DNA from: an uncultured delta proteobacterium
Lineage (GTDB): Bacteria; Desulfobacterota; Desulfobulbia; Desulfobulbales; Desulfurivibrionaceae
Reading direction: 5' to 3'
Assembly (NCBI GenBank): GCA_903869265.1
Contig: CAIPYE010000001.1
Location: 1 to 64,000, forward strand
Length of the DNA stretch: 64,000 nt
A program made the position numbers and the translations under genes. Below the pieces are notes generated by a model, which saw only the letters and a list, made by a program, of their open reading frames with translations, did no database searches and had not been told where the DNA came from. This document shows, piece by piece, positions 28,792 to 37,521 of this stretch (position 1 is the stretch's first letter; each line of letters begins with the position of its first letter).

Positions 28792-29592
28792 ATGAACCCC
28801 TTCGAGATTGTCCAACGAACCCCAAAGACCAATTGCGGGCAATGCGGCTATCCAACCTGCCTTGCCTTTTCCGCGGCGGTCACCAAAAGCGGCGAGGACT
28901 TTGGCAAGTGCCCCTATCTTGACACCACCGGCCTCAATGTTGAGCAAAAGCAAGGCATTGCTCTTGAGGAACTCTCCGGGCAACGCGATCTGGCCCTCAT
29001 CGAACACCTCAAAGACAAAATCTCCGCTCTGGATTTTACCCGTATCGCCGCCCCCTTGGGCGCCACCCTCTGTGGCTTGAACAATCAGGCCCTGTCGTTT
29101 CCGTTTCTTGCCCAGGAAGTGCTTCTGAGCAGGCAAGGGATTCTCCTCGACGGCTGTACCCCGGATGACCCCAGGGACCAGATTCTCATCTACAACTATA
29201 TCCACTCCCAGGGCGGACCCGATCCTGCCTTGGACTGGATCGGCCTGGAAACCCTGCCCAACTCCATCTCCAAGGTACGAACCCTTGCCACCTACTGCGA
29301 AAACAGATTGGCAGAACTCTTCACCCATCTTCCCGGCGAGACAATCATTTCGGCTTGCACCCGCCTAGGGGGCGTTGCGCACCCAACGCCATCCGCCACG
29401 CTCGGCTGCATCATCCCTGTCCTGCCCAAGATTCCGCAATACCTTGTCTACTGGACGGAAGAACCCGAAGACGGATTTCCCGCCAAGGTCAAAATTCTGT
29501 TCGATCGCCAGGTACTGAACTTTCTCGACCTGGAATCCCTGATTTTTTCAGCGGAACGGATGGCAGAACGTCTTGCCGTCCTGCTGGCCTAA
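28792..29592 (+). CDS. Fe-S domain plus DUF3786 protein
   Basis: A 266-residue protein. The N terminus has a four-cysteine cluster (NCGQCGYPTC, later GKCPYL), like the 4Fe-4S domain of corrinoid/CO-dehydrogenase proteins. The rest matches DUF3786 of anaerobes (QEVLLSRQGILLDG, DQILIYNYIHSQGG). No catalytic role is established. It ends the phosphosignalling operon; whether it is a target of the kinase is open. Confidence 0.8.
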   Translation: MNPFEIVQRTPKTNCGQCGYPTCLAFSAAVTKSGEDFGKCPYLDTTGLNVEQKQGIALEELSGQRDLALIEHLKDKISALDFTRIAAPLGATLCGLNNQALSFPFLAQEVLLSRQGILLDGCTPDDPRDQILIYNYIHSQGGPDPALDWIGLETLPNSISKVRTLATYCENRLAELFTHLPGETIISACTRLGGVAHPTPSATLGCIIPVLPKIPQYLVYWTEEPEDGFPAKVKILFDRQVLNFLDLESLIFSAERMAERLAVLLA

Positions 29593-29714: not shown

Positions 29715-31043
29715 ATGGCCCGACAACCTGCCGCATACACCGCCCCCCTGGCAGAACGCCTGCGTCCGCAAACGATAGATGATTTTGTCGGACAAAAACA
29801 ACTGTTGGGCGAGGACAAACTGCTCAAGCGGCTCATCCAGCAAAAATACCTGCCCTCTCTCTTGCTCTGGGGTCCGCCCGGCACCGGCAAAACCACCCTG
29901 GCCCGGATCCTTGCCCAAACAACCGGCGCTGATTTTGCTTTTTTTTCCGCAGTGCTGTCCGGGGTCAAGGAGATTCGGGAAATAGTGGCCCAGGCCCAGA
30001 CAGCCAAGGAAGATCGTAACACCGCCACCATTGTTTTTGTGGACGAAATCCATCGCTTCAACAAGAGCCAGCAGGACGCCTTTCTCCCCCATGTGGAAAG
30101 CGGCCTGCTGACGCTAATCGGTGCAACCACCGAAAATCCCTCTTTCCATGTTATCGCGCCTCTGCTCTCCCGGTGCCGGGTCCTGGTCCTTGAGCCGTTG
30201 AGTCCGGAAGATTTGCAGACCATTATCCTGCGGGCCATCTCGGACAAAGAGCTGGGGCTGGGCTCCTGGCAGATATCCTTGGAGCCGGAGGCGGCCGTCC
30301 ACCTGGCCAGGATTGCCGACGGTGACGCTCGCAGCCTGCTGAACAGTCTGGAAATCGCCGCCAATCTGGCCGAACCGGATGCCACGGGCACGCGGCAGAT
30401 AACCCTGGCCACGGTGGAAGAAGCCATCCAACGCAAAAGCCTGCGCTACGATGCGGACGGCGAGGAGCATTACAATCTGATCTCGGCTCTGCACAAAAGC
30501 CTGAGGGACAGCGATCCGGACGGAGCCCTGTACTGGCTATGCCGAATGCTCGCCGCCGGCGAGGAACCCCTCTACGTGGTCCGCCGCTTGATCCGCTTCG
30601 CCTCGGAAGACATCGGCAATGCTGACCCCCAGGCCCTTACGGTTGCCATCAACGCCAGAAACTCCTACCAGACCCTGGGCAGCCCGGAGGGAGAACTGGC
30701 CATTGCCCAAGCTACAACCTATCTTGCCACCGCCCCCAAGAGCAATGCCGTCTATGCAGCCTACAACGCGGTGATGCACGATATCAGACGCACAGGCAGT
30801 CTGCCGGTGCCGCTCCATCTCCGCAACGCGCCAACCGCGCTGATGAAGGATCTCGGCTATGGCAAGGGCTACCAGTATGCCCACGATGATTCCCATGCCC
30901 TGGTGGATCAACATCATTTGCCGACTGAACTTGAAGGAAAAACTTATTATCAGCCAACCAACCGGGGATATGAAGCGCTCATCCGGGATCGGCTTGGCAA
31001 ATGGCGACAGCTGTTGCGGGATCGAAAGAAACAACCCGCCTGA
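29715..31043 (+). CDS. rarA: Replication-associated recombination protein A
   Basis: A 442-residue AAA+ ATPase (MgsA/WRNIP1 family) acting at stalled forks. N terminus PLAERLRPQTIDDFVGQ, Walker A GPPGTGKTT, Walker B VFVDEIHRF with sensor 1 GATTENPSF, and the C-terminal MgsA region (YVVRRLIRFASEDIGNADP, LPVPLHLRNAPT). Normal length. It starts about 120 bases after the Fe-S gene and ends 33 bases before the selenoprotein gene. Confidence 0.96.
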   Translation: MARQPAAYTAPLAERLRPQTIDDFVGQKQLLGEDKLLKRLIQQKYLPSLLLWGPPGTGKTTLARILAQTTGADFAFFSAVLSGVKEIREIVAQAQTAKEDRNTATIVFVDEIHRFNKSQQDAFLPHVESGLLTLIGATTENPSFHVIAPLLSRCRVLVLEPLSPEDLQTIILRAISDKELGLGSWQISLEPEAAVHLARIADGDARSLLNSLEIAANLAEPDATGTRQITLATVEEAIQRKSLRYDADGEEHYNLISALHKSLRDSDPDGALYWLCRMLAAGEEPLYVVRRLIRFASEDIGNADPQALTVAINARNSYQTLGSPEGELAIAQATTYLATAPKSNAVYAAYNAVMHDIRRTGSLPVPLHLRNAPTALMKDLGYGKGYQYAHDDSHALVDQHHLPTELEGKTYYQPTNRGYEALIRDRLGKWRQLLRDRKKQPA

Positions 31044-31076: not shown

Positions 31077-32729
31077 ATGACCACAATGAACAAACTGACC
31101 ACCTTTCTGCTGCTTTGCTTTCTTGGCCTGCTGAGCATGACCGCACCCGTATCAAGGGCTTCGGGAAAAAGCACAGACAACCCCAAACAACAAGCAGGAA
31201 CACCGCACGACCTGACCTTCTTCTTTTCCAACGATGTGAGGGGAGAAACGGAGCCGTGCGGCTGAAAAAGCAACCAGTTGGGCGGTCTGCCCAAGAAAGC
31301 GCAGCAGCTTGAAACCGTGCGGGGAAAAAAATCCGCAGTACTTGCCCTTGACAGCGGAGCCCTGCTTTTTAAAGATGAAAAATTGCCGCCGGATCAGCGC
31401 GAACAGCTCACCGCTACAGCCGAGGGAATTGTCGCCGCATACAACAAGATGTCCTTTACCGCGGTTGGCGTGGCCCGGCAAGATCTCGCAGCAGGACTGC
31501 CCTTCCTCCTCGCTGTCCAGAAAAATTCAAGCTTCCCTTGGCTGAGTGCCAACCTGCTCAGCCGCACCGCACGAAAACCCTGGTTCAAACCGCACACCCT
31601 GATCACGGCAGGCGGGATGCGCATCGCGATCATCGGCCTCACCGACCAAGGTTCTGACTCTCTCTTTACGGAAAAGGACAACGCGATCATTGCCCCGTGG
31701 GAAGAAATTTTGCCCAAGGAAATCGCCCAACTGCGGGACCGGGCGGAGATGGTCATTTTGCTTTCCAGCTTTCCTGCAGCAATAAACCGGAAGATCGCCG
31801 AGGCCCATCCGGAGATTCACCTGATCCTCCAAGGGGGGAACACCCCGGGAAACATCCCGCCGGAGCGGATCAACAACACCCTGATTACCCAGGTGGAAGC
31901 CCAAGGAAAATCAGTGGGCATTCTGGAGGTGCATTGGAACGCACAAAGCAAGAGATGGGAAGAGCCCGGTTCGGAAAATCTCCTGGAGGACAAGAAAAAC
32001 GCAATGGACCGCCTGGGGTGGCAGATCAACCGTTATCGTCGACAAGGCGACCCGGAACAGACATTCAAGGACCAGCCCGAGGTTCTTGAGGCATATAACG
32101 ATTTACTGGCAAGGCAGAAACTGCTGGAAGAGGAGATTGTCCGTCTTACCGCTGAACAAAAGGCCCGGGATGCGAGCCACCAACGACTCTCCTCGTACAG
32201 CAGCCATTTTGAGCCCATGCGCAAGGAACTTCCGGACAACCCGGCAGTCCGGGCCATTGTCGATGCAACCACCAGCGAGGTGAACCGGATCGGCAAGGCA
32301 GCAGTCAAAGCGAGAATTTCAGAAACCACCGTCCAGCAGCAGAAAGGGCCTTTGGGAAATTATGTCGGCAGCACCGCCTGCACCAACTGTCATGCCCCCC
32401 AGTTTGCGAAATGGCGCGGCACACAGCATGCTACGGCCTATGACACCTTGGAGGCAAAGGGGCAGCAGTTCAATGTGCAATGCCTGCCCTGCCACATCAC
32501 CGGACCCGCCGCCCAGACAGGGCAGGAAATGCTCGCCCTTGCCCATGATCTGCGCCAAGTCGGCTGCGAATCCTGCCATGGCCCGGCCCGTGCCCACACC
32601 ATCCAGCCAACGGGGGCCAAAGCTGGCCAGCCGACCATGGACACCTGCCTGCGCTGCCACACTGGTGAGCATGATGACAGATTCAACTTTGCCGAGGCTC
32701 TCTCCCGCCTTCGCTGCGGCTCCGATTAA
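31077..32729 (+). CDS. Selenocysteine-containing UshA-like/multiheme cytochrome
   Basis: 550 residues if the in-frame UGA at codon 63 is read as selenocysteine. The N terminus is a signal peptide (TTFLLLCFLGLLSMTA), then an UshA/5'-nucleotidase-like domain in which EPCG-Sec-KSNQLGGL stands where related proteins have EPCGC...GGL. The C-terminal part holds four heme sites: CTNCH, CLPCH, CESCH, CLRCH. The protein would be exported and bind four c-type hemes. The UGA is followed by a SECIS hairpin at the standard distance, and the frame stays open and coding-like on both sides, so a nonsense mutation is unlikely. The start could also be the ATG 9 bases downstream. Confidence 0.85.
31263..31294 (+). 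promoter_or_regulatory. Bacterial SECIS element at the UGA codon
   Basis: The UGA is followed after 18 bases by GGTCT closed by a perfect 6-bp stem (TTGGGC / GCCCAA). The E. coli fdhF SECIS, as I recall it, has the same GGUCU loop motif 18 bases after its UGA; it is the part bound by SelB. Confidence 0.85.
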
Positions 32730-36591: not shown

Positions 36592-37521
36592 TTAGCAGCC
36601 AAAAGCCTTCTGCAACGGCGGAACGGTCTGTTTCTTGCGGCTCATCATGCCACCTACCCACATGGAATTGCCCGCGATCTTGCCGCCGAAAGCCTGCTCA
36701 ATAACTGCGGGCTCATCGGAAACAACCAGCAGGTCGGTACCCTCTTTCACAACATCAGTAAGCATGAACAGTACAGAGTGACGACCATCCTTTTTGAGGT
36801 CCTCAAGAGCCTTGTACAGATCGGCACGAATGCCGGCAACCTGATCAAGGGTCGCGAGTTCGATCTGGCCGATACCAACCTTCTTGCCGTTCATGTCGAA
36901 ATCCTTGTAGTCGCGGAAAACCAGATCCTTCATGGGGACTCCGTCCACGGAAGACTTGGCCTTCAGCATCTCCATGAAGAGCGCATCGGTGTCGGCAACG
37001 CCGGCAATGGTTTTCAGGGCGGCAACCGCAGCCTTGTCAGGAGCGGTGCAGGTGGGGGACTTGAAGTTCACGGTGTCGCTCAGGATAGCGGAGAGCATGG
37101 CGCCGGCAATATCCTTGGGCAGGGCAACGTTGTTGTTCTTGAACATCTCGTACAGCACGGTGCAGGTGCAGCCAACGGGCTGGGCATTGAACACGATCGG
37201 GTTGTTGGTGGTGATATCACCGATCTTGTGATGATCGATAATGGCGACAACCTCGGCGTCCTTGATGTTTGCCGGAGCCTGACCGATATCGCTGAAATCG
37301 ACCAAGGCAACCTTCTTGCCCGCAGCGTCCATCATGGTCTGGGGCGCGGCCAGACCGAAATTTTTAAGCACAACGGTGCTCTCGGGATTCAGCTTGGCTG
37401 CCTCAATCTGCATGCAGGCATGGGCGTCAGTGCCGGTTGCCTTCAGATAATGTGCGTAAGCAATGGCAGCAGCAACGGAATCGGTATCGGGATTTGAATG
37501 GCCAACAACACAAACAGACAT
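36592..37521 (-). CDS. ppaC: Manganese-dependent inorganic pyrophosphatase (family II)
   Basis: A 309-residue DHH-family enzyme that hydrolyses pyrophosphate. Motifs: VVGHSNPDTDSVAAA, VDFSDIGQAP, IIDHHKIGD (the DHH triad), ILSDTVNFKSPT, and the DHHA2 end with SRKKQ. All metal-binding Asp and His residues are present. AAGGAGG precedes the ATG. Family II enzymes are common in anaerobes and Firmicutes. Confidence 0.97.
   Translation of the reverse strand: MSVCVVGHSNPDTDSVAAAIAYAHYLKATGTDAHACMQIEAAKLNPESTVVLKNFGLAAPQTMMDAAGKKVALVDFSDIGQAPANIKDAEVVAIIDHHKIGDITTNNPIVFNAQPVGCTCTVLYEMFKNNNVALPKDIAGAMLSAILSDTVNFKSPTCTAPDKAAVAALKTIAGVADTDALFMEMLKAKSSVDGVPMKDLVFRDYKDFDMNGKKVGIGQIELATLDQVAGIRADLYKALEDLKKDGRHSVLFMLTDVVKEGTDLLVVSDEPAVIEQAFGGKIAGNSMWVGGMMSRKKQTVPPLQKAFGC

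Follow-up and report, generated by a model that had tools for sequence, protein, structure and literature searches.

Gene organization and protein architecture

The stretch of DNA that we analyzed (the window) comprises the first 64,000 nucleotides of contig CAIPYE010000001.1 from an uncultured delta proteobacterium of the Desulfurivibrionaceae. It carries, directly downstream of a rarA-like gene, a gene for an UshA-like tetraheme protein, in which an internal UGA is almost certainly read as selenocysteine (Sec). The features at this locus are as follows.

29715 to 31043, plus strand: rarA-like AAA ATPase gene, directly upstream with a 33-nt gap (conserved neighbor)
31077 to 32729, plus strand: gene for an UshA-like, Sec-containing tetraheme protein of 550 residues, with Sec at residue 63 (NF041198 match and sequence)
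31086 to 31163, plus strand: predicted signal peptide region (MNKLTTFLLLCFLGLLSMTAPVSRA; hydrophobic N terminus, model helix 6 to 19)
31209 to 31985, plus strand: calcineurin-like (UshA/5'-nucleotidase) fold domain without dimetal ligands (Foldseek and ligand comparison)
31263 to 31265, plus strand: Sec-UGA codon for residue 63, motif P-C-G-U (at this column, TGA in 78/90 and a Cys codon in 12/90 homologs)
31278 to 31294, plus strand: bacterial SECIS (bSECIS) hairpin, 6-bp stem TTGGGC/GCCCAA and loop GGTCT (inner five pairs in 77/77 in-register Sec genes and 2/12 Cys genes)
32361 to 32690, plus strand: C-terminal tetraheme domain with four CxxCH sites, cytochrome c554 type (PF13435)

The gene starts at an ATG at position 31077 with AGGAG just 5' of it, and the next stop after the TGA is the TAA at 32727 to 32729. 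The original prediction had placed an in-frame UGA at codon 63 and expected most gene callers to break the gene in two, which is plausible; the codon lies at 31263 to 31265, and standard translation gives a split into a 62-amino-acid peptide and a 483-amino-acid open reading frame beginning at TTG 31278. As a routine matter for this genome, the locus should be annotated as a single selenoprotein of 550 residues. A codon usage scan for other in-frame TGAs in the window yielded no convincing candidate, the higher-ranking ones including ends of ordinary genes and antisense frames.

The predicted protein matches the NCBIfam model NF041198, "UshA-like (seleno)protein," with 631.4 bits (E = 1.1e-189; curated cutoff, 275), and its PCGU motif occupies residues 60 to 63. 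The UshA-like and tetraheme assignments that had been proposed from the sequence were both borne out. The best PDB matches found with Foldseek are 5'-nucleotidases (1hp1 and 1ush; E of ~1e-17 over ~285 residues), based on an AlphaFold2 model built from 47 homologs (mean pLDDT, 88.8; pTM, 0.84). Pfam Cytochrome_C554 (PF13435) was detected at residues 434 to 502 (52.3 bits; cutoff, 20.8), and the four CxxCH sites, at C435, C469, C497, and C524, are invariant in 47 sequences. The hydrophobic N terminus, predicted to be a signal peptide, suggests that the protein is exported.

In 34 of the 39 loci with flanking sequence, which span many families of the order, a rarA-like gene is the immediate upstream neighbor and has the same orientation, and this conserved adjacency indicates old vertical inheritance of the selenoprotein gene in the order. 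A manganese-dependent pyrophosphatase gene is found downstream on the opposite strand in 20 loci. The arrangement of rarA-like gene, selenoprotein gene, and pyrophosphatase gene is conserved over the order (29715 to 31043 and 36592 to 37521 in the window), and in the window's genus dnaK lies downstream on the opposite strand, with dnaK-grpE between the selenoprotein and pyrophosphatase genes. These rarA-like, pyrophosphatase, and dnaK neighbors are housekeeping genes and gave no functional clue. Elsewhere in the window, the protein encoded at positions 28792 to 29592 matches the gamma subunit of acetyl-CoA decarbonylase/synthase over 45 residues at its N terminus, with the motif CGQCGYPTC (Fe-S type), and the rest of it has no assignment.

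The UshA-like domain and its dimetal site

Given the UshA/SoxB-type fold, the protein could be a Sec-bearing hydrolase, either an UshA-like nucleotidase or a SoxB-like, thiosulfohydrolase-like enzyme. The residues of the dimetal site (D-x-H, GD, GNH, H, and GHxH) argue against this reading. L002, a canonical paralogue from this genome, keeps SDVH, AGD, GNH, SH, and GGHSH, whereas the window protein, with this paralogue as the reference, keeps only one of the eight metal-binding and catalytic residues, and no member among 47 of the family keeps more than three. The attached tetraheme domain likewise does not fit a hydrolase, and no Pfam match to the 5'-nucleotidase C-terminal domain was found in the window protein. 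The dimetal phosphoesterase site has been lost across the family, and because of this loss the window protein is probably not a nucleotidase or other phosphoesterase; we regard a Sec-bearing hydrolase as improbable.

Sec/Cys exchange and the Sec machinery

Among the 258 genomes of the class, 190 encode a protein that scores above the NF041198 cutoff, and most of the matches listed for the class have exactly one internal TGA. In a sample of the phylum, 40 of 198 genomes carried a member above the cutoff, again mostly with one TGA; some of the phylum matches cover the UshA part only. The family is common in the phylum and often selenium dependent. Named close relatives, 78 to 85% identical, come from uncultured Desulfobulbaceae and Deltaproteobacteria assemblies.

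We read 90 homologous genes taken from the matches listed for the same class. The alignment around the motif is gapless, with TGA in 78 genes, a Cys codon in 12, and no other residue at this column; since the Cys forms were picked on purpose, the ratio of 78 to 12 is not a frequency. The homologs thereby confirmed that the UGA takes the place of the second Cys of EPCGC, as had been proposed, and provided the Cys/Sec exchange that an alignment had been expected to reveal. A tree of 88 sequences requires three independent switches between Sec and Cys, and C61, G62, residue 63 (U or C), and all heme Cys and His residues are invariant in 47 sequences. Some distant members, among them L068, L073, and L108, have ACGU or GCGU in place of PCGU, with CGU and the hairpin kept. 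Five genomes (G239, G242, G243, G254, and G257) contain both a Sec copy and a Cys copy (loci L055 to L058, L060, L061, L077, L079, L106, and L110), and in these the Cys copy is possibly a selenium-independent backup.

The genome (2.82 Mb, 99.2% complete) encodes SelA (615 bits), SelB (370 bits), and SelD (379 bits), all above their cutoffs, and a tRNA-Sec (selC; 72.5 bits, above the cutoff) with the anticodon TCA, so that the search for selA, selB, selC, and selD suggested with the original prediction recovered all four. Neither outcome named beforehand as refuting, a genome lacking the Sec machinery or homologs with neither Cys nor Sec at this position, was encountered. The SelD gene (L024, C14:1869-2792) has one in-frame TGA of its own, and SelD is very probably itself a selenoprotein, a known situation.

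Conservation of the hairpin in Sec genes

The predicted 6-bp stem with a GGTCT loop was found exactly as described: TTGGGC at 31278 to 31283, GGTCT at 31284 to 31288, and GCCCAA at 31289 to 31294, with exactly 18 nt between the TGA and the loop. Published rules for bSECIS elements (PMC13188914) call for a stem of 4 to 16 bp, a loop of 3 to 9 nt located 16 to 37 nt from the UGA, a G within the first two loop bases, and a minimum free energy of at most -7.5 kcal/mol. With 6 bp, a 5-nt loop, a distance of 18 nt, and a free energy of -12.1 kcal/mol over the 42 nt that follow the UGA, the hairpin has the SelB-type geometry that had been claimed for it. In one sequence alone, such a hairpin is weak evidence for Sec, because 8% of the window's 2,023 TGA triplets are followed by some hairpin under loose rules and 0.44% by this exact geometry, and because the folding energy is ordinary. 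Relative to shuffled sequences, the local fold has no extra stability (z = -0.41), and we therefore set folding energy aside as uninformative.

The comparison of homologs, by contrast, places the hairpin far beyond chance. All 77 in-register Sec genes retain the full set of inner five stem pairs, against only 2 of the 12 Cys genes (Fisher P = 1e-11, relatedness ignored); the 78th Sec gene (L072) keeps the usual spacing with a shifted hairpin of 8 pairs. Silent sites follow the same pattern: the first Gly is encoded by GGC and the second Leu by CTG in 77/77 Sec genes versus 7/12 Cys genes in each case, against background usage in these genes of 44% of Gly codons for GGC and 36% of Leu codons for CTG. 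The outer stem pair alternates between T-A and C-G (Fisher P = 9e-7, relatedness ignored). That the hairpin is kept in Sec genes and relaxed in Cys genes, at silent sites too, shows selection at the RNA level that keeps it in step with Sec.

These observations bear on two further readings of the TGA. It might be decoded as another amino acid without selenium, by reassignment to Trp or Cys or by readthrough, and the existence of Cys homologs is compatible with this idea; however, the genome has SelA, SelB, SelD, and a tRNA-Sec with a TCA anticodon, the SelB-type hairpin is conserved at silent sites, and the exchange is with Cys, Sec's usual counterpart, all of which make such decoding highly improbable. 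That the TGA is a real stop, in a pseudogene or through a sequencing error in a Cys-type gene, agrees with the standard code and with the ordinary stability of the hairpin but has a negligible probability and is refuted by the homologs, since TGA occupies the same codon in 78/90 genes from many families of the order, the frame past it and all hemes are kept, and the hairpin is conserved only in TGA genes. We infer that Sec is inserted at residue 63 in vivo, and the window protein is almost certainly a Sec-containing member of NF041198.

Discussion

The UshA-like selenoproteins are an already-named family of which the window gene is an ordinary member. The family (COG0737, motif CxU) was published in 2008, when 76 Sec members and 92 Cys members were counted in the Global Ocean Sampling data (PMC2398784); it also appears in review tables (PMC9312934 and PMC13188914), and NCBI holds a dedicated model for it. 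In the literature searched, the family was confined to tables and lists, and we found no study of its function.

The loss of the metal site, the gain of Cys-Gly-Sec, and the four fused hemes provide a concrete redox hypothesis. SelA and SelD would make selenocysteyl-tRNA, and SelB would carry it; loaded SelB would then bind the hairpin just past UGA 63 and insert Sec, creating a Cys-Gly-Sec pair. The protein would be exported and subsequently receive its four c-type hemes. Since the UshA-fold domain has lost the phosphoesterase metal site, the Cys-Gly-Sec loop, which directly follows the old D-x-H segment in the sequence, may be the working site and may exchange electrons with the tetraheme domain. 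The protein is probably a thiol/selenol oxidoreductase or reductase of the periplasm; we infer the redox function, the electron path, and the partner. Taken by itself, a redox mechanism is one that we moderately favor. The fuller proposal, that a phosphoesterase fold became a redox enzyme whose Cys-Gly-Sec is wired to the tetraheme domain for direct heme-to-selenenylsulfide exchange in the periplasm, is more tentative, and we would put it slightly below an even chance.

Among known systems, E. coli UshA/5'-nucleotidase shares the N-terminal fold (1hp1 and 1ush), but the window protein is without the dimetal ligands and the catalytic His and has a tetraheme domain instead. Its C terminus shares the four-heme region of cytochrome c554 (PF13435; 1bvb), although the c554 type is present here only as a fused domain, with a different partner domain. 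Similarity to UshA-like selenoprotein family 2 (NF049981; CxxU) is weak, covering residues 46 to 295 with 39.5 bits, below the cutoff of 140, and the Sec motif of that family differs. NF041198 (UshA_like_PCGU), in contrast, matches over its full length (residues 36 to 538), shares the PCGU motif, and has known Cys homologs, and nothing sets the window protein apart from this family.
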